Below the pieces are notes generated by a model. It made no database searches. It was not told where the DNA came from and saw only the letters and a program-made list of their open reading frames with translations. The translations under genes were made by a program, and so were the position numbers. This document shows positions 9,728-44,510 of a stretch of 50,792 nucleotides of DNA, piece after piece. Source of the DNA: Deltaproteobacteria bacterium (GTDB lineage Bacteria > Desulfobacterota > Binatia > UBA9968 > JAJDTQ01); the NCBI GenBank assembly GCA_026712905.1, contig JAPOPM010000047.1:1-50792 (forward strand), written 5' to 3'. Position 1 is the first letter of the stretch; the number at the start of each line of letters is the position of its first letter.

Positions 9728-9757
9728 TTGACAGCCGAAGTGGGCGGTGCCTATAGA
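9728..9757 (+). promoter_or_regulatory. Near-consensus sigma70 promoter of the ubiD operon
   Basis: TTGACA (9728-9733), 18-base spacer, TATAGA (9752-9757). The start is expected near 9764, leaving a 60-base leader before the ubiD ATG. It argues against the longer open frame that begins at 9719. Confidence 0.7.
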
Positions 9758-9823
9758 TTCCACGGAACCCGCGCCATTTCGACGCGACGGCACCGGCCCC
9801 TCAGCCGGCCCGGAGACCGATGC

Positions 9824-11272
9824 ATGACAAGCGCACCCAGGGACGTCGAGGCCGCCCTCAACCTCAGGACCTTCATCGACCGTCTCAAGCAGGCGGGAAA
9901 GCTCAAGGAGGTGCGGGAGGCGCACTGGAACCTGGAGATCGGCGCGCTCACCGAGATCAGCGCGGAAGCGGAAGAGCGCTCCGCGCTCCTGTTCGACTCC
10001 ATTCCGGATTTTCCCCAGGGCTACCGCGTCCTGAGCAACGTCCTGCGCTCGCCCGAGTCCGACGCCCTGGCCCTGGGCATGCCGCCGGACGTGCGCGGCA
10101 TGGAACTGGTGCGGTCCATGAAGGGACGGCTGCAGAACCTCGAGCCCATCCCGCCCGCGGAGATCGGCGAGTCCCCGCTGCTCGAAAACGTCGCCTTCGA
10201 CGGCGACGTCGACGTGCTCAAGTTCCCGACCCCCAAGTGGCACGCGGACGACGGCGGACGCTACATCGGCACGTTCACCGCCACCGTGTGCCGCGATCCC
10301 GATACCGGCTACGTCAACGTCGGCACGTACCGCGTGCAGGTCCACGACGAGAACACGATGGGCGTGTGGATGATTCCCGGAAAGCACGGCGATCTCATCG
10401 CCCGCAAGTACTGGGCGCGGGGCGAGAGTTGCCCGGTGGCCGTCGTATGCGGGCTGCCGCCCGGCATGATGACCGCGAGCGCCGTGGGCATTCCCTGGAA
10501 CATGAGCGAGTACGACTTTCTCGGCGGCCTGCTGGAGACCCCGGTGCCGGTCATCAAGGGGAGCCGGACGGGCCTCCCGGTGCCGGCCTTCGCGGACATC
10601 GTGTTCGAAGGCCACATTCCGCCGCCCGAGCAGGAGACCCACGAGGAGGGACCGTTCGGCGAGTGGCCGGGATACTACGCCTCGGGGTCGCGGCAAGCCC
10701 CGGTGGTGAAGGTGGAGGCCGTCTATCACCGCGACGACCCCATCATCACCGGCGATCCCCCACTGCGGACCTTCCTCAACAGCGAAACCCACAAGTACAT
10801 CCGCTCGGCCAACATCTGGTCGTCCCTGGAACGCGCCGGCATCCCCGAGGTGCAGGGCGTGTGGTTCCCGCGCCAGGGACGGTTCATGGTGACCGTGGCC
10901 ATCAAGCAACGCTACTCGGGCCACGCCAAGCAGGCGGGGTACGGCGTCCTCGCCACGCGCGACGGCGGGCGCGACGTGCGCATGGTCATCGTGGTGGACG
11001 AGGACGTGGACATCACCAACATGGGCGAGGTGCTGTGGGCCATGTCCACGCGTTGGGACCCCCGGAGCGACTCCGAGATCCTCGACGTGGCCGCGAGCAT
11101 CCTGAACCCGAGGCTTTCGCCGGAAGACAAGCAGCGCCGGGAGCTGACCAGCTCCTGCATGGTCGTGGACGCATGCCGGCCCTACAGTTGGAAGGACGCC
11201 TTCCCCAAGATCTCGGCCGTGAGCGCCGAGTACAAGGCCGAGGTCCGGGCAAAATGGGCGGACCGGCTGTGA
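9824..11272 (+). CDS. ubiD: UbiD-family prenyl-FMN-dependent (de)carboxylase
   Basis: The 482-residue protein belongs to the UbiD family, which (de)carboxylates unsaturated or aromatic acids using prenylated FMN made by UbiX. It shows the N-terminal FIDRLKQAGKLKEV, the central VNVGTYRVQVHDENTMGVWM with its conserved Arg, and the hallmark HEEGPFGEWPGYYASG carrying the catalytic acidic residues. Length is normal. The ATG at 9824 is preceded by GGAG at 8 bases and lies downstream of the promoter at 9728; an in-frame extension to 9719 would start upstream of that promoter. It leads an operon with two HDO-type oxidases and two bicupins, so its product is probably an aromatic or unsaturated intermediate oxidised and ring-opened by them. 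The ubiX copy in this window is at 43917-44510. Confidence 0.93.
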   Translation: MTSAPRDVEAALNLRTFIDRLKQAGKLKEVREAHWNLEIGALTEISAEAEERSALLFDSIPDFPQGYRVLSNVLRSPESDALALGMPPDVRGMELVRSMKGRLQNLEPIPPAEIGESPLLENVAFDGDVDVLKFPTPKWHADDGGRYIGTFTATVCRDPDTGYVNVGTYRVQVHDENTMGVWMIPGKHGDLIARKYWARGESCPVAVVCGLPPGMMTASAVGIPWNMSEYDFLGGLLETPVPVIKGSRTGLPVPAFADIVFEGHIPPPEQETHEEGPFGEWPGYYASGSRQAPVVKVEAVYHRDDPIITGDPPLRTFLNSETHKYIRSANIWSSLERAGIPEVQGVWFPRQGRFMVTVAIKQRYSGHAKQAGYGVLATRDGGRDVRMVIVVDEDVDITNMGEVLWAMSTRWDPRSDSEILDVAASILNPRLSPEDKQRRELTSSCMVVDACRPYSWKDAFPKISAVSAEYKAEVRAKWADRL

Positions 11273-11349
11273 CGCAAGGTCACGGTCAACCCCGGTTTCG
11301 CTGGCACCCTCACGCCCGACACGCGCGTCGGAAGGCTTGAGGAGACCGT

Positions 11350-12078
11350 ATGGAAACGCAGACCGCGGCAGGCAACGGCGTGGAGGGTGTCTGGCACGAG
11401 TTGGTGGAGCTGGTGAACGGGCAGTTCGAGACCCCGCCCTTCCGCCGGCTGCTGGGCGTCCGCTTCACCCAGGCCCGCGCCCAGGCCCTGTCCATCCAGA
11501 TGAAGCACTACGTGGCCAACCGGCGGGACTGCTGGGGGTTCGTGGCGGGCGCATCGCCGCTTAGCGTGAAACGGCTGGTCTGGGAGCACGAGGGCGAGGA
11601 GCTCATGGGCGACAAGACCGCGGGCAAGGTCGACCACATCACCCTTGCGGTGCGGGAGGGCAAGATCTTCGGGCTCGACCCGGAGGACTTCGAGCGCGTG
11701 CGCCCGCTGGACGCGGCCACGGCATGCTTCTACGCGTGGATCCATCTGGCCAAGGACCGCCCCTGGCGCGAGGCGGTGGCGGCGTCGGCGGTGCTGGAAA
11801 TGCGCAATTCCGACGAACTGGTGCGCGGCGGATCGCTGTCCTACCGCGTCGGCAAGAACCTGGAACGGGACCTGGGTATTCCGCTGAAGCACCAGATCAA
11901 CAACGCCGAGCACGTGACCGCCGACATCGAGCACGGCCAGCTCCTGCTAGCCGTGGCGCGGGAGCACTGCCATACCCAGGAAGATCAGCAGGCGCTGCTG
12001 CGCGGGGCGCGGGAAAGCCTCGTCATCGACCGCGCCTACCGGGAACAGCTCGTCAACATGATGGAGGCGCTGGACTAG
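11350..12078 (+). CDS. Heme-oxygenase-like di-metal oxidase (TenA/PqqC/CADD fold), copy 1
   Basis: This 242-residue all-helical protein resembles the TenA/PqqC/CADD superfamily, now called heme-oxygenase-like diiron oxidases. The ligand set looks complete: Glu in VWEHEGEEL (about E79-E84), His96 in KVDHITL, Glu150 in SAVLEMR, and the helix-7 signature HVTADIEH (H188-x3-D192-x2-H195), the same H-x3-D-x2-H spacing known from CADD. Members catalyse O2-dependent C-C or C-N cleavage, N-oxygenation or desaturation. GAGGAG lies just before the ATG. It follows ubiD by 77 bases and is itself followed by a clear paralogue. The substrate is unknown; thiaminase TenA is unlikely because TenA's active-site Cys pattern is not evident. 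Confidence 0.82.
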   Translation: METQTAAGNGVEGVWHELVELVNGQFETPPFRRLLGVRFTQARAQALSIQMKHYVANRRDCWGFVAGASPLSVKRLVWEHEGEELMGDKTAGKVDHITLAVREGKIFGLDPEDFERVRPLDAATACFYAWIHLAKDRPWREAVAASAVLEMRNSDELVRGGSLSYRVGKNLERDLGIPLKHQINNAEHVTADIEHGQLLLAVAREHCHTQEDQQALLRGARESLVIDRAYREQLVNMMEALD

Positions 12079-12174
12079 AAGCTCGTTCATTCGGAACGCC
12101 GGGCGGCCTCGCCGGATCGCGTCAAGCAGAGCCTTGACCAGGCTCTCGGGGGCCGCGCCACAGGAGACGGAGAC

Positions 12175-12882
12175 ATGCCCGATATCGCCAAGCTCAAGAG
12201 CACGCTGAACGAGATGTGCAACCGCCAGTACGGGACCGACGAGTTCCAGGACCTGCTGACGCTGCCCTGGACCATGGAGCGGGGACGCTACTACGTCGTG
12301 CAGAACGCCATCTACACGAAGAACCGGCGGGACTGCTGGGCCTACGTCCAGGCCGCGGCGCCGCTCGACGTGAAGTCCCTCGTTTGGCAGCACGAAAGCG
12401 ACGAGCTGATCAACGACCCGCGCTGCGACATGGACCATTACACGCTAACGGTCAAGCAGGGTGAGGTCATCGGCCTGACGCAGGAAGACTTCGACAACGC
12501 GGAGCTCCCGCCCATGGCCCAGGCGGCCTTCATGGCGTGGCACCTCATCGCCATCAAGGGGCCGTGGCTGGCCTCGTTCACCTCCTCCCAGATGCTGGAG
12601 CGGCGCAACAACCCCGAGATCATCACCGACGGCGGCATGTCCTACCGCATCGGCAAGAAGTTCGAGAACGAACTGGGCATCAGCCTCAAACGGATGATCT
12701 CGCTGAACGTCCACTCCACCGCCGACACCGAACACTCGGACATGATGGACGGGGTCTACGACCGGCACGTGCGCACTCAGGAGGACTACGACACGGTGCT
12801 GCGCGCCGCCAAGCAGTGCATGGCCATCGACCGCGCCTACCGCGGCGGCCTGGCCTACGTCATGCAGCGCATCGAGGGTTGA
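12175..12882 (+). CDS. Heme-oxygenase-like di-metal oxidase, copy 2
   Basis: A 235-residue paralogue of the preceding gene: both share NRRDCW, the VW(E/Q)HE segment and a YR(V/I)GK block, and both keep all six putative metal ligands (here E74, H88 in DMDHYTL, E142 in QMLERR, and HSTADTEH giving H180-x3-D184-x2-H187). The sequences are otherwise well diverged, which argues for two distinct roles or an obligate heterodimer rather than a recent duplication. A GGAGACGGAGAC stretch before ATG 12175 supplies the ribosome site. It lies 96 bases downstream of copy 1 and 22 bases before the first bicupin. Reaction type is inferred from fold only. Confidence 0.82.
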   Translation: MPDIAKLKSTLNEMCNRQYGTDEFQDLLTLPWTMERGRYYVVQNAIYTKNRRDCWAYVQAAAPLDVKSLVWQHESDELINDPRCDMDHYTLTVKQGEVIGLTQEDFDNAELPPMAQAAFMAWHLIAIKGPWLASFTSSQMLERRNNPEIITDGGMSYRIGKKFENELGISLKRMISLNVHSTADTEHSDMMDGVYDRHVRTQEDYDTVLRAAKQCMAIDRAYRGGLAYVMQRIEG

Positions 12883-12904
12883 CCGGTTCGCCAAGGAGAC
12901 GACC

Positions 12905-13924
12905 ATGAGCCTCGAAGACCTGAACAAGGATCTGGCCACCAAGCGTTTGGCGGGTTTCTGGGCTTCCAACATCACGGACAACGACGGCGAGGTCCTGGAG
13001 CCGCGCACCACCGTGGTCCCCTACCTGTGGAAGTGGGGCGACATCTACGACGGGCTGCTGCAGGCCGGCGAACTGGTAAGCCTGGAACAGTCGGAGCGGC
13101 GCACCATCCGGCTCCTGAATCCGGGCGTGCCCGGCACCACCGGCGCCACCAACACGGTGCACACCTCCATCCAGCTCGTGAAGCCCGGAGAGATCGCCAA
13201 GGCCCACCGCCATACCCTGACGGCACTGCGCTTCGTCCTCAAAGGCGGCGGCGCCTTCACCACGGTGGAGGGCGAGCGCTTCACCATGCACCCCGGCGAC
13301 CTGATCCTGACGCCGCAGTGGACCTGGCACGACCACTACAACGGCACCGGCGAAAACATCGTGTGGCTCGACGGCCACGACGGCCCGCTGCTCAAGGCCC
13401 TGGAGGTGATGGCGGTGGAGCCCTTCAGCCAGAAACAGCAGCCGGTGGAGGCTATGCCCAACTTCAGCCTGCACCAGTTCGGCTGGGCGCGGCCGCCCGA
13501 GCAGCTTTCGGAGTTCCCCGACCCTCCCTTCCGCTATCCGTGGGAGACGACTTACGAATCGCTGAAGGCGCTGGCGTCGAGCCCGGGCGACGAGTGCGAC
13601 GGTGTGCTGCTGCGCTACGTCAACCCACGCAACGGCGGCTTCACGCTGCGCACCATCGGCTGCGAGATCCAGATGATCCGGCCCGGCGAGGAGACGCGCT
13701 CGCACCGCCACACCAGCACGACCATCTACCACGTGTTCCGCGGCAGCGGCGCCACCATCGTCAACGACCAGCGCATGGAATGGAGCGAGGGCGACTTCTT
13801 CACCGTGCCGCTGTGGTCGTGGCACGCGCACGAGAACGGCAACAAGGACGAAGCCATCCTGTTCTCGGTCAACGACCGTCCGGTGAAGGAGGCCTTCGGG
13901 CTCTACCGGGAAGAGCGCGCGTAG
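12905..13924 (+). CDS. Bicupin dioxygenase, gentisate 1,2-dioxygenase-like
   Basis: The 339-residue protein has two cupin barrels. The first carries AKAHRHTLTALRFVLKGGG with H101 and H103 and the closing QWTWHDHYN (H142/H144), which is very close to the ring-cleaving gentisate/1-hydroxy-2-naphthoate dioxygenase pattern. The second carries RSHRHTSTTIYHVFRG (H267, H269) and LWSWHAHEN (H307/H309). Both metal sites therefore look intact, whereas in many gentisate dioxygenases only one is used. AAGGAG precedes the ATG. By family knowledge it would use Fe(II) and O2 to open a hydroxylated aromatic ring in the cytosol, fitting a ubiD-led aromatic pathway. The exact substrate is not readable. Confidence 0.88.
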   Translation: MSLEDLNKDLATKRLAGFWASNITDNDGEVLEPRTTVVPYLWKWGDIYDGLLQAGELVSLEQSERRTIRLLNPGVPGTTGATNTVHTSIQLVKPGEIAKAHRHTLTALRFVLKGGGAFTTVEGERFTMHPGDLILTPQWTWHDHYNGTGENIVWLDGHDGPLLKALEVMAVEPFSQKQQPVEAMPNFSLHQFGWARPPEQLSEFPDPPFRYPWETTYESLKALASSPGDECDGVLLRYVNPRNGGFTLRTIGCEIQMIRPGEETRSHRHTSTTIYHVFRGSGATIVNDQRMEWSEGDFFTVPLWSWHAHENGNKDEAILFSVNDRPVKEAFGLYREERA

Positions 13925-13959
13925 AGGCAAGTACCGGAACCCAAGGAAGGAGCATTCCC

Positions 13960-15075
13960 ATGAGCAAGGCCGCCACCATCGACACGGCAAACGGGTCGGA
14001 ACGGAACCTCAACGAAGCCTCCGGCTTCGCCCCCATCAGCCCCTACGAGATCTACCAGCAGTGGGAAGGGGTCCCGGTATACAAGGGGTTCATCATCGAC
14101 GACCTGCTGGAGCTGGAGTTGGGCGAGTGGGCACGTACCGGCGGCAAGGGCGCGTTCGTCAATCTCGACGGCGCCGGCGGCACCTGCGACACGGTGATCC
14201 AGGAGATCGCGCCGGGCAAGGAGCTGCGGCCGCAGCGCCACTTGTTCGAGGAAGCGGTGTTCATCCTGTCCGGCCAAGGGGCCACCACGCTGTGGAACGA
14301 GGGCGGCCGCAAGCACACCCTGGAGTGGCAGAAGGGCAGCCTCTTCTCCGTCCCGCTCAACACGTGGTTCCAGCACTTCAACGCCCAGGGAAAGGAACCG
14401 GTGCGGATGATCTCGCTCACCGACGCCACCATGGTCATCAACCGCTACCGGAACCTGGACTACATCTTCAACAACCCGTTCACCTTCGGCGACCGCTACC
14501 AGGGCGACGCCAACGAGTGGGGCCAACCCGGGCGCTACCTCGAAGGCGTCAAGAAGGGCCGGGTGTGGGAGTCCAACTTCATCGCCGACCTGTGGCAGTT
14601 CCAGCCCAAGGACTACAAGGAGCGCGGCGGCGGCAACCGCACCACCCTGTTCGAGTTCGTCGACAACACCATGAGCGCACACCTCTCGGAATTCCCCGTG
14701 GGCAAGTACAAGAAGGCCCACCGGCACGGCGCCGGCGCGCACATCATCATGCTGACCGGCTCCGGCTACTCCTTCCTGTGGGAGGAAGGCGCCCCGCGGA
14801 AACGCGTGGAATGGGGCCGCATGAGCATGTTCGTGCCGCCCATCCAGTGGTGGCACCAGCACTTCAACAACGGCGCCGAGCCCGCGCGCTACCTGGCGCT
14901 CAAGCCCTGGGGCTTCAAGTACAAGGTGGAGGAACTGAAGGACACCGGCGAGGACGTCAAGAAGGGCGGCGCCCAGATCGAGTACGAGGACCAGGACCCG
15001 GCCATCCACCAGGTCTTCATCGAAGAATGCCGCAAAAGCGGCGCCCAGGTGGACATGGCGCAGTTCGGCTTCTGA
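13960..15075 (+). CDS. Bicupin protein with one degenerate metal site
   Basis: A 371-residue two-cupin protein, distantly related to the preceding one. In the first barrel the H-x-H motif reads RPQRHLFEE, so the first His is Gln (Q92) while H94 and the later H139 remain. The second barrel keeps KKAHRHGAGAHIIML (H254, H256) and QWWHQHFNN. The pattern suggests a single catalytic metal site in the C-terminal half. The start at ATG 13960 follows AAGGAAGGAG, 35 bases after the previous stop; the frame is open far upstream but only as the shadow of the first bicupin. It ends the ubiD operon. It may be a dioxygenase, isomerase or binding protein; I cannot tell which. Confidence 0.85.
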   Translation: MSKAATIDTANGSERNLNEASGFAPISPYEIYQQWEGVPVYKGFIIDDLLELELGEWARTGGKGAFVNLDGAGGTCDTVIQEIAPGKELRPQRHLFEEAVFILSGQGATTLWNEGGRKHTLEWQKGSLFSVPLNTWFQHFNAQGKEPVRMISLTDATMVINRYRNLDYIFNNPFTFGDRYQGDANEWGQPGRYLEGVKKGRVWESNFIADLWQFQPKDYKERGGGNRTTLFEFVDNTMSAHLSEFPVGKYKKAHRHGAGAHIIMLTGSGYSFLWEEGAPRKRVEWGRMSMFVPPIQWWHQHFNNGAEPARYLALKPWGFKYKVEELKDTGEDVKKGGAQIEYEDQDPAIHQVFIEECRKSGAQVDMAQFGF

Positions 15076-16415: not shown

Positions 16416-17048
16416 CTATCCCGGAACGGCCGCCAACGCGTCCATCACACCGATCATGCTGTCTCGCGTCACGAGCTTCTCAAGCTCCTCGACGCTCAGG
16501 TTCTCGGTGTCCGCCGGGCGCGCCGGGATCACCAGATAACGCATGTCCGCGGTGCTGTCGTGCACCCGGACCTCGACGTCGTCGGACACTTCCAGGCCGA
16601 ACTCACGCATGACCCCTCTCGGGTCGTTCACCGCGCGCTTGCGGTAGTTGAAGCTCTTGTACCAGTCGGGCGGCCGTCCCAGGATCGGACGCGGGTAGCA
16701 CGAACACAGCGTGCATACCACCATGTGGCGCACCGTGTCCGTGTTCTCCAGGACCACGAACTCGTTGAGCGTGCTCGCGTCGATGCCCATCTCGGCGCAC
16801 ACCTTCTTGGGATCCGCCACGAAGCGCGCCTTGAACTCGGGATCGGTCCAGGCGAGCGCCACCAGCCGGGCGCCGTTGGCCGGCGTCTTGGACTCGGTGA
16901 ACTCCGCATGCTGGCGGATGTCCTCCTCGGTGACGACACCCTTGTCGATAAGGATGTCGCGCATGGCGTAGGCGCGCTTGGCCCAGTGGCTCAGCTCATG
17001 CCGCGGCCCCGCCTCGTGCTCCTCTCCCGGTTCGTGTTCGTGTGCCAT
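16416..17048 (-). CDS. Nitrile hydratase alpha / thiocyanate hydrolase gamma-like metal subunit
   Basis: The 210-residue product contains the low-spin metal claw VCTLCSCYPRP with C112, C115 and C117; the CTLCSCY version (Thr after the first Cys) is typical of cobalt enzymes, and cysteines 115 and 117 are normally oxidised to sulfinate and sulfenate. Other family blocks are KGVVTEEDI near residue 37, VALAWTDPEFKARFVADP and a C-terminal VRVHDSTADMRYLVIPARP. The start at ATG 17048 (MAHEHEPGEEHE) is His/Glu-rich, a feature seen near metal-handling subunits. It follows the two split beta genes with a 19-base gap. Family members hydrate nitriles to amides or hydrolyse thiocyanate. No separate cobalt activator gene is visible nearby. 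Confidence 0.92.
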   Translation of the reverse strand: MAHEHEPGEEHEAGPRHELSHWAKRAYAMRDILIDKGVVTEEDIRQHAEFTESKTPANGARLVALAWTDPEFKARFVADPKKVCAEMGIDASTLNEFVVLENTDTVRHMVVCTLCSCYPRPILGRPPDWYKSFNYRKRAVNDPRGVMREFGLEVSDDVEVRVHDSTADMRYLVIPARPADTENLSVEELEKLVTRDSMIGVMDALAAVPG

Positions 17049-17067
17049 CCCTTTTCCCTCTCTCTGC

Positions 17068-17373
17068 TCAGGCGCCCGCCTCGGCGGCGGGCTCGAGCCA
17101 GTGCTCGAAGATATCCACGAAGATCTTGTCCTTGCTGCCCGCGTTGTAACCGTCCCACACGTCCTGTTGGTGAAAGCCCACCAGGTAGAGCCGCACCCGC
17201 GGCAACCCGTCACCGCTGTGGCCCAGGGACTCCGGGTTGCGGAACTCGCCGTAGCACCGTTCCACCCAGCCGGTCTTGCCCTTGATGTAGAACGGCGTGC
17301 GCACGTGGCCCGGCTGGAAGTGGGACTTCACCCGCACCGCCGCGCCGTCCCGGAAAACCGCTCCACCGCTCAT
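17068..17373 (-). CDS. Split nitrile hydratase beta subunit, C-terminal half
   Basis: This 101-residue protein corresponds only to the C-terminal SH3-like part of nitrile hydratase beta: AAVRVKSHFQPGHVRTPFYI followed by KGKTGWVERCYGEF and LYLVGFHQQDVWDGY are the family signature. Its ATG overlaps the preceding gene by ATGA (17370-17373), so production of the two halves is coupled. Separate genes for the two beta halves are the known arrangement in thiocyanate hydrolase and in three-subunit nitrile hydratases such as the toyocamycin enzyme. It contributes part of the active-site pocket beside the alpha metal centre. There is no sign of a frameshift; the split looks functional. Confidence 0.88.
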   Translation of the reverse strand: MSGGAVFRDGAAVRVKSHFQPGHVRTPFYIKGKTGWVERCYGEFRNPESLGHSGDGLPRVRLYLVGFHQQDVWDGYNAGSKDKIFVDIFEHWLEPAAEAGA

Positions 17374-17678
17374 GGCTCACCCCAGCGCTCTTCCAGCTCA
17401 GCCACCTTCCGGTCCACCTCTTCCCGGGTCACAAGACCCTTCTCCACCAGGATGGTCTCCAGGCTGGCGATCCAGCGCTCGTAGTAGCTCAGCGACAGAT
17501 ACGCTTCCGAATCCATATCCTCCCGCGCGCGCCGGGTTTCATCGGTGCACTTGATGCCCTTTACCCCGAGCACCTGGTTCAGCGCGTCGGCGAGAACCTC
17601 CCAGTCGTCCATCGCGTGTTCAGTGCGGTCGAGGGCCCCCGCGTCGGGGTCCCCGCCCATGTCATGGGTCCTCTTCAT
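17370..17678 (-). CDS. Split nitrile hydratase beta subunit, N-terminal half
   Basis: The 102-residue product begins MKRTHDMGGDPDAG, close to the HD(L/M)GG opening of nitrile hydratase beta chains, and contains the YYERWIASLETILVEKGLVT helix that in full-length beta subunits precedes the SH3-like half. The ATG at 17678 is set by GGAGG six bases upstream; the reading frame is open to 17702 without a better site. It is first of a three-gene enzyme operon (N-beta, C-beta, alpha) followed by an M24 hydrolase. Gene order matches that of thiocyanate hydrolase (beta, alpha, gamma). A beta half alone has no catalytic residues. Confidence 0.85.
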   Translation of the reverse strand: MKRTHDMGGDPDAGALDRTEHAMDDWEVLADALNQVLGVKGIKCTDETRRAREDMDSEAYLSLSYYERWIASLETILVEKGLVTREEVDRKVAELEERWGEP

Positions 17679-17750
17679 GGCGTCCTCCGTGGGATTCAGC
17701 AATACGGAAAAGCCTTGGAGGTGTCAAGAACGCTCCCTGGCTCCCCGGAT

Positions 17751-30437: not shown

Positions 30438-30464
30438 TTCAGGGGCGGCCCTTCCGGCCGCCCG

Positions 30465-30633
30465 GTCCTCAGGTCCCTTAGGGGATAACAGGGAAACCGG
30501 TTTAAAGCCGGTGCGGTCCCGCCACTGTAGATGGGAACCCTTGCCAGGGTGCCACTGTTCCCCACGTAGGAACGGGAAGGCGGCAAGGCGGTCCACGCGG
30601 CCAGCCCATGAGCCAGGAGACCTACCTGAGGAC
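30465..30633 (+). promoter_or_regulatory. Cobalamin riboswitch 1 (upstream of tonB)
   Basis: The closing stem pairs GTCCTCAGGT (30465-30474) exactly with ACCTGAGGAC (30624-30633). The conserved core is present: CAGGGAAACCGGT, GGTGCGGTCCCGCCACTGTA, a GCCACTG repeat, GGGAAGGCGGC, and the B12 box AGCCAGGAGACCTACC. A strong hairpin at 30717-30742 (GGG-CCGGTC/GACCGG-CCC) before the tonB GTG may be part of the expression platform. On binding adenosylcobalamin the family normally switches genes off. Confidence 0.95.
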
Positions 30634-30759
30634 ACGACGCAACCGTGCTCTCCGAGGAGAGAGGGGGTCTCGCCATCAGCACTCAACCCATAGCCGCGCT
30701 CGTTCCCGCTTCCGTCGGGCCCGGTCCTCTCTGACCGGCCCCGGATCGCCGAGGACGAC

Positions 30760-31623: not shown

Positions 31624-31667
31624 GACCGTAACGAAGAGATCCGTATCCGCCACAGACAAAAGCCTGA

Positions 31668-31838
31668 AAAACGGATGCCAGGGAAAGGGGTGTGAATCCC
31701 CTGCTGCCCCGCAACTGTAACGGCTACGAAAACCGCGGATCGAGCCACTGCCCGCATGACGGGTGGGAAGGCGCGGCGAGTAGGACGGCAGCCGCAGCGG
31801 CCTGCCAGGAAGCCCGAGCCAGGAAACCTGTCCGTTTT
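31668..31838 (+). promoter_or_regulatory. Cobalamin riboswitch 2 (upstream of btuB)
   Basis: The closing stem pairs AAAACGGA (31668-31675) with TCCGTTTT (31831-31838). The core GGTGTGAATCCCCTGCTG, CCCGCAACTGTAA, GCCACTG, GGTGGGAAGGCG and the B12 box GAGCCAGGAAACCTGTCC are all present. It starts 44 bases after tonB, so it may act within a tonB-btuB message; I saw no convincing promoter in the gap. Confidence 0.95.
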
Positions 31839-31876
31839 CCATCCACAATCCGCCTTCGCGGGAAAGGACGATTGCC

Positions 31877-43916: not shown

Positions 43917-44510
43917 TCATTCCTTGTCGCCGGGGAAACGGCTCAGGGACTCCTCGTCCCAGCGGTGGAACATGTCGGTCTCGACGTCGAACTGGTCGAG
44001 GATCCGCGCCACGGTCTGGTTGATGACGTCGTCCAGGGTCTTGGGCCGGTGATAGAAGGCGGGCACCGGCGGAAAGATCACCGCGCCCATGCGCGTGAGC
44101 TGCGCCATGCTCTCCAGGTGCCCCAGGTGCAGCGGGGTTTCCCGCACCACCAGCACGAGCTTCTTCCGCTCCTTCAGGATGACGTCCGAGGCGCGCACCA
44201 GCAGGTCGCCGCCGACGGACATCACGATGCCGCCCATGGACTTCATGGAGCACGGCGCGATGACCATCCCCTCGGTGCGGAACGAGCCGCTGGCGATGCT
44301 CGCGCCGATGTTGTTGATGTCGTGCACCATGTCGGCCATGGCTTCGACTTCCTTGACCGTGTGCGGCGTCTCCACCTGGAGGGTCATCTTGGCTGCCTTG
44401 CTCATGACCAGGTGGGTCTCGATGTCCGGTATCCTGTGCAGCACCTGGAGTATGCGGATTCCGTAGATGGATCCGGTGGCCCCTGACAGGCCTACGATGA
44501 CACGACGCAT
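43917..44510 (-). CDS. ubiX: Flavin prenyltransferase UbiX
   Basis: The 197-residue enzyme prenylates reduced FMN with dimethylallyl phosphate to make the prenyl-FMN cofactor of UbiD enzymes. Seen: the start RRVIVGLSGATGSIYGIRIL, GSFRTEGMVIAPCSMKSMGG, LLVRASDVILKERKKLVLV and RETPLHLGHLESMAQLTRMGA, with the late PAFYHRPKTLDDVINQTVARI. All are diagnostic. Length is normal. It lies 25 bases after the DUF120 gene. The window's only UbiD is at 9824-11272, over 30 kb away, so UbiX here either serves it in trans or another UbiD outside the window. Confidence 0.95.
   Translation of the reverse strand: MRRVIVGLSGATGSIYGIRILQVLHRIPDIETHLVMSKAAKMTLQVETPHTVKEVEAMADMVHDINNIGASIASGSFRTEGMVIAPCSMKSMGGIVMSVGGDLLVRASDVILKERKKLVLVVRETPLHLGHLESMAQLTRMGAVIFPPVPAFYHRPKTLDDVINQTVARILDQFDVETDMFHRWDEESLSRFPGDKE

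Follow-up and report, generated by a model that had tools for sequence, protein, structure and literature searches.

It was found that a stretch of DNA from a Deltaproteobacteria bacterium of the class Binatia (contig JAPOPM010000047.1 of assembly GCA_026712905.1; 50,792 nucleotides, hereafter the window) carries an operon in which two tandem genes for heme-oxygenase-like di-metal oxidases (HDOs) lie between a ubiD gene and two bicupin genes, and that the linkage of HDO genes with similar cupin and UbiD genes recurs through the order. The best-supported reading, to which I give an even chance, is that the operon serves the aerobic catabolism of a carboxylic acid with an aromatic or heteroaromatic ring. 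The window genome (G000) is one of the 148 genomes in the class set, and loci of the window genome and of other genomes are cited by L numbers. The features of the window that bear on the operon are as follows.

9728-9757, + strand: promoter-like TTGACA-N18-TATAGA upstream of ubiD, from a reading of the sequence
9824-11272, + strand: UbiD-family (de)carboxylase dependent on prenylated flavin mononucleotide (prFMN), 482 amino acids, with the R and E-G-P-F-G-E of the E-R-E network kept
11283-11322, + strand: tctC remnant of about 40 bases in the ubiD-HDO1 spacer, from a local alignment
11350-12078, + strand: HDO1, recognised by Pfam PF14518, an AlphaFold2 (AF2) model, fold matches, and invariant ligands
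12175-12882, + strand: HDO2, a paralogue of HDO1, 235 amino acids, recognised by PF14518 (41 bits) and alignments
12905-13924, + strand: CUP1, a bicupin like gentisate/salicylate/5-aminosalicylate 1,2-dioxygenases, with Cupin_2 matched twice and two metal sites
13960-15075, + strand: CUP2, a diverged bicupin with one conserved site (Cupin_2, 48.5 bits)
43917-44510, - strand: UbiX flavin prenyltransferase, far from the operon (TIGR00421, 236 bits at 43959-44504)

Gene products of the operon

All five open reading frames (ORFs) are intact and on the + strand, and each of the five proteins scores above the Pfam gathering cut-offs, so that the genes are as the initial annotation had read them. The tight spacing and the separate ribosome sites that it described were also seen; the gaps along the operon are 77, 96, 22, and 35 bases, and a GGAG/GAGG-type site precedes each gene. 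The ratio of nonsynonymous to synonymous substitution rates (dN/dS) against three congeners is 0.09-0.17 for all five genes, which indicates purifying selection. The strong promoter proposed for ubiD stands in part. Its TTGACA-N18-TATAGA sequence is present and TTGACAG is kept upstream of ubiD in L042, L045, L046, and L047, but the -10 element is not kept, and a consensus promoter scan reported no site at 9728-9757.

HDO1 and HDO2 match the Haem_oxygenas_2 family (PF14518) with 54 and 41 bits, respectively (cut-off 28.9), and are 40% identical to each other. The ligand set of HDO1 is E84, H96, E150, and H188-x3-D192-x2-H195, and that of HDO2 is E77, H88, E142, H180, D184, and H187. The six ligands are kept in all 18 HDO1/HDO2 sequences aligned, and in an alignment of 15 divergent HDOs of the order they are, with the start Met, the sole invariant residues. 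This set of three histidines and three carboxylates, ending in H-x3-D-x2-H, is that described for the HDO superfamily (PMC13108848). The AF2 model of HDO1 has a predicted local distance difference test score (pLDDT) of 87, and its fold matches those of CADD (Z 22.9; root-mean-square deviation 2.4 over 209 residues), HrmI (Z 21.2), BesC (Z 20.6), and UndA (Z 18.4). HDO1 is thus predicted to have the seven-helix heme-oxygenase-like fold of the superfamily, and HDO2 probably shares it, judging from the 40% identity. The claim of two diverged paralogues with a full ligand set was borne out, and the structural check proposed for the metal site returned the expected fold for HDO1 together with conserved ligands. 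A PDB sequence search with an HDO gave weak matches alone (4lqx), among which a match to PfEMP1 was taken as chance. Other HDO genes of the window genome (L029 5047-6987 and L030 165-1281), one of them a tandem pair, adjoin a VOC-family (glyoxalase/dioxygenase) gene and not a cupin gene.

The four proteins matched by HDO1 have the fold (Z 18-23) and the ligand set in common with it. About a dozen HDOs have been characterised, mostly on fatty and amino acids (PMC13108848). Whereas these known HDOs belong mostly to biosynthesis, the HDOs found here, 12-17% identical to them, form a tandem pair that stands with UbiD and ring-cleavage-type cupins.

The Cupin_2 domain was found with 102 bits in CUP1 and 48.5 bits in CUP2. 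Both metal sites of CUP1 (H101, H103, H142 and H267, H269, H307) are conserved in 25 homologues, while the C-terminal site alone (H254, H256, H299, H301) is invariant in 50 homologues of CUP2, as expected from the claim of a bicupin pair with two intact sites in the first member and one in the second. The closest structure to CUP1 is chain 3bu7_A (E 2.7e-74), to which CUP2 is matched with an E value of 1.4e-6. CUP1, with two Cupin_2 domains and HxH...H sites, is a bicupin of the broad gentisate/salicylate type, like gentisate 1,2-dioxygenase (3bu7, 2d40) and the 5-aminosalicylate 1,2-dioxygenase MabB; CUP2, in which the C-terminal metal site alone is conserved, may be of that type. Unlike these enzymes, CUP1 scores under the curated values of both equivalogs, with 300 bits for TIGR02272 (gentisate dioxygenase; 442) and 319 bits for NF049978 (MabB; 650), and CUP2 is far more distant (21 and 32 bits). 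The AF2 model of CUP2, made from nine close sequences, has a pLDDT of 42. The nearest relative of CUP1 outside the genus (66%, L094) occurs together with an HDO and a CUP2-type gene. The CUP2 family has 8-28 copies per genome in the order.

The window UbiD exceeds the cut-offs for the N, rift, and C domains of Pfam and for TIGR00148 of NCBIfam (277 bits; cut-off 244.9). The closest solved chain is 7pda_A (E 3.7e-130), and the R and E-G-P-F-G-E of the window protein align with those of 7pda and 4ip2. The three UbiD domains, the R, and E-G-P-x-G-E are shared with 7pda, pyrrole-2-carboxylate decarboxylase HudA (4ip2), and phenylphosphate carboxylase beta, from which the window UbiD differs in that it is below the equivalog cut-offs. 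The substrate of 7PDA was not found in the open-licence literature. One UbiX over the cut-off was found in each of eight genomes, including the window genome. In the five genomes in which UbiD genes were counted, there are 34-43 of them per genome with a single UbiX over the cut-off.

Conservation of the locus and linkage across the order

When 84,980 species genomes were scanned with HDO1 and HDO2, ten loci were obtained, all in metagenome-assembled genomes (MAGs) labelled Binatia or Deltaproteobacteria; the closest relatives of the window genome bear the name Candidatus Binatia. Some isolate names (APA, RHO) hint at sponges as a possible origin. A phylum-wide search with HDO1 over 297 genomes, few of them members of the order, found the window genome only, and a class search with CUP2 found more; among plasmids, neither HDO1 and HDO2 nor three further HDOs used as queries had a match.

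The gene order claimed for the window was sought in other genomes and is conserved in congeners, with a TctC gene between UbiD and HDO1. The order UbiD-TctC-HDO1-HDO2-CUP1-CUP2 is found in L043, L045, and L046, and in L044 up to the contig end; in one congener MAG it is divided over L042 and L051, and L047 lacks CUP1. A full tctC lies between ubiD and HDO1 in 6 relatives and is absent from the window. The remnant in the window spacer aligns with a score of 26 to tctC of L042 and 22 to that of L045, whereas the highest score among 200 shuffles (versus L045) is 16. These roughly 40 bases point to a recent deletion in the window, or else to an error of assembly.

In a second family of the order, the locus reads DAO-HDO3-DapA-like-NMT1-binding protein-EutA-like-HDO1-HDO2-CUP2, followed by a short-chain dehydrogenase/reductase (SDR) on the other strand (best seen in L090, L091, L085, and L088). 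Thus, HDO1-HDO2-CUP2 has as neighbours two binding-protein genes, a DapA/HpaI-like lyase, an amino-acid-oxidase-like flavin adenine dinucleotide enzyme, and the SDR. L083 has a truncated HDO1, and L086 has none. Since the five-gene set is confined to the genus while the second family shares HDO1-HDO2-CUP2, the latter is the older core and the exact five-gene set is a genus-level unit, not an ancestral one. The initial annotation's view of the five genes as a unit therefore holds for the conserved order among congeners and not for the ancestry, and the window itself has lost tctC. HDO1 and HDO2 form separate clades, each of which spans both families (supports 100/100 and 99/98). The duplication is thus old, preceding the family split, and both copies have kept all the ligands. 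Neighbour calls in L087, L101, L104, L105, L107, and L119-L121 were set aside as likely wrong-frame ORFs, and L087 was read again by tblastn.

Is the association of HDOs with cupins and UbiD limited to this locus? Eight genomes of the order contain 142 HDO, 75 CUP1-like, and 138 CUP2-like genes, with 5-31 HDOs per genome. A CUP1-like gene lies on the same strand within 3 kb of 22 of the 142 HDOs (0.92 expected), and a CUP2-like gene within that distance of 13 (1.66 expected); in five of the genomes, with 183 UbiDs in all, a UbiD is found within 3 kb of 16 of the 95 HDOs (2.16 expected). These ratios are indications, not probabilities, since the expectations rest on uniformly placed genes and take no account of how closely the genomes are related. 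Seven triads of UbiD, HDO, and CUP1 within 6 kb were found in the five genomes, such as those in L028 (the window genome itself), L112, and L115, and also in L109, L110, and L116. The CUP1-linked HDOs are spread over many separate branches of the HDO tree, which suggests that the pairing arose or was reassembled repeatedly. In these genomes the operon is accordingly one HDO/cupin/UbiD locus among many.

EutA-like genes beside CUP2-type bicupins

EutA is the reactivase of ethanolamine ammonia-lyase and acts in ethanolamine use. At the second-family locus, the gene that precedes HDO1 matches Pfam EutA with 380 bits; the window locus has no EutA-like gene. Of the 32 EutA-like genes in the eight genomes, 20 have a CUP2-type gene within 5 kb (0.57 expected), and several of these stand between two CUP2-type genes (L117, L118). 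EutA-like ATPase genes beside CUP2-type bicupins are located as follows.

L117: 6529-8046
L118: 6505-8016
L088: 6209-7663

A Phyllobacterium plasmid carries the CUP2-EutA pair twice (L040, L102). One copy is near a ring-hydroxylating dioxygenase, a class II aldolase, NikR, and a nickel/cobalt transporter, and the other is near a thiamine pyrophosphate enzyme and TctABC genes. No EutB was found in any of the eight genomes. Thus, while the Pfam match is common to these proteins and to EutA, CUP2-type bicupins take the place of EutB beside them, and the EutA-like proteins probably work with the bicupins. By analogy with EutA, they might reactivate the bicupins or control their metal state, which is a guess. 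The pairing without EutB casts doubt on a widely used annotation.

Proposed function and neighbouring genes

The catabolic nature of the operon, its substrate, the HDO reaction, the order of the steps, and the role of CUP2 are proposed here from the enzyme families, whose chemistry is established. In the intact form of the operon, a TctC-type periplasmic receptor would capture the ring acid. Using prFMN supplied by the genome's own UbiX, UbiD would remove a carboxylate non-oxidatively, and the dimetal centre of HDO1/HDO2 would use O2 to oxygenate the product by hydroxylation or oxidative decarboxylation. The resulting compound may be a hydroxylated or aminated ring resembling salicylate or gentisate, which CUP1 would open between the carbons that carry the hydroxyl and the carboxyl group. 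The ring-fission product may then be dioxygenated once more, or isomerised, by CUP2 at its single metal site.

The recurrence through the order of the HDO link with UbiD and a gentisate-dioxygenase-like cupin fits the aromatic acid route that the initial annotation had suggested. Several observations weigh against the route. The second family has neither UbiD nor CUP1 at the corresponding locus, where an EutA-like gene, two binding proteins, and a third HDO stand in their stead, and G402 has no CUP1, so that the HDO pair can do without either; three second-family genomes (L084, L087, L089) have CUP2 and a neighbour or two and no HDO. CUP1 lies below the curated cut-offs of both known ring-cleavage equivalogs. 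Relatedness among the genomes inflates the linkage counts, which are compared with a chance model of uniformly placed genes. Finally, an HDO acting in ring-acid catabolism was not found in the open-licence literature searched.

No paper on HDO-UbiD-gentisate, cupin-aromatic degradation, Binatota-UbiD, or EutA-cupin-gentisate combinations was found in the same literature. The enzyme kinds are known, and their combination and its scale in the order were not found described, in agreement with the early remark that no described pathway has this set; coming from open-licence papers only, this is weak evidence of novelty. A broader proposal, which I regard as tentative and somewhat doubtful, is that in this one order HDOs have been recruited at scale into ring-acid catabolism as a module with a gentisate-type bicupin and UbiD, and that the EutA-like ATPases are reactivases or metal-state keepers of CUP2-type bicupins and not of ethanolamine ammonia-lyase. 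If true, HDOs tied to decarboxylases and ring-cleavage enzymes would form a catabolic branch of the superfamily, open to direct assay, and would help explain the lifestyle of uncultured Binatia, with their many UbiDs, HDOs, and CUP2-type cupins per genome.

Could the HDO pair act on nitrogen instead? In SznF, a natural HDO-cupin fusion, the HDO hydroxylates a nitrogen and the mononuclear-iron cupin rearranges the product (PMC13108848), and this is the closest precedent for HDO-cupin cooperation. The pair might likewise N-hydroxylate an amine or guanidine, after which a mononuclear-iron cupin would rearrange or cleave the product and UbiD would trim a carboxylate. The N-oxygenase HrmI is among the nearest folds to HDO1 (Z 21.2), the best score of CUP1 is with 5-aminosalicylate dioxygenase, the second-family cluster has an amino-acid-oxidase-like gene, and both the window and L051 have an adjacent nitrile hydratase. 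However, HDO1 matches CADD and BesC just as well, neither of them an N-oxygenase, so the fold does not discriminate, and the nitrile hydratase is outside the conserved gene set. SznF is one fused protein with a single cupin domain, whereas the operon has separate genes for two HDOs, with UbiD added and gentisate-type bicupins, CUP1 being a full ring-cleaving-type one; no protein of the operon joins an HDO to a single SznF-like cupin. I consider N-oxygenation rather unlikely.

The steps may also run in another order, with a cupin first opening the ring and the HDOs then decarboxylating oxidatively or cleaving C-C bonds in the aliphatic product. Known HDOs mostly use aliphatic carboxylates and amino acids (PMC13108848), and the second-family pair is linked to CUP2, the EutA-like gene, and the DapA-like lyase without UbiD. 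Gene order gives no reaction order, but the tightest repeated linkage is that of HDO with the ring-cleaving-type CUP1 and UbiD, and action after ring opening seems unlikely. It is quite improbable that HDO2 or HDO1 is a partner subunit or a metal or substrate chaperone of the other and not an oxygenase. The tandem duplicates are older than the family split and still adjacent in nearly all loci, and a second tandem pair occurs in C138, as might be expected of partners; a degenerated subunit, however, would differ from the 18 sequences, all of which have the six ligands. A biosynthetic operon for a small specialised metabolite is very improbable: nearly all characterised HDOs are biosynthetic (PMC13108848) and UbiD enzymes can be so too (e.g., BagN/FevL), but receptor genes (TctC, NMT1-type) lie inside the operons, related loci carry lyases, class II aldolases, and amidohydrolases, and tens of family copies per genome fit broad catabolism better. 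No carrier protein, non-ribosomal peptide synthetase, or polyketide synthase gene is among the genes identified near the operon.

Nitrile hydratase, an M24 peptidase, and HyuA/HyuB were rejected as members of the operon, being on the opposite strand and variable among congeners. At 16416-17702 (- strand), the nitrile hydratase alpha gene has a CTLCSC motif, which I take to be of the cobalt type, and the beta subunit is split over two ORFs. The nitrile hydratase adjoins the M24 peptidase, which is distantly similar to DddP; nitrile hydratase is also adjacent in L051 and not in the other congeners. Convergent HyuA/HyuB-type genes follow CUP2 in L045 (11981-16113), L046, and L047 and not in the window; the nearest match is caprolactamase, below the cut-off. 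Elsewhere in the window, two cobalamin riboswitches were found on the + strand (30454-30643 and 31656-31849), with cobalamin-biosynthesis-looking genes nearby.

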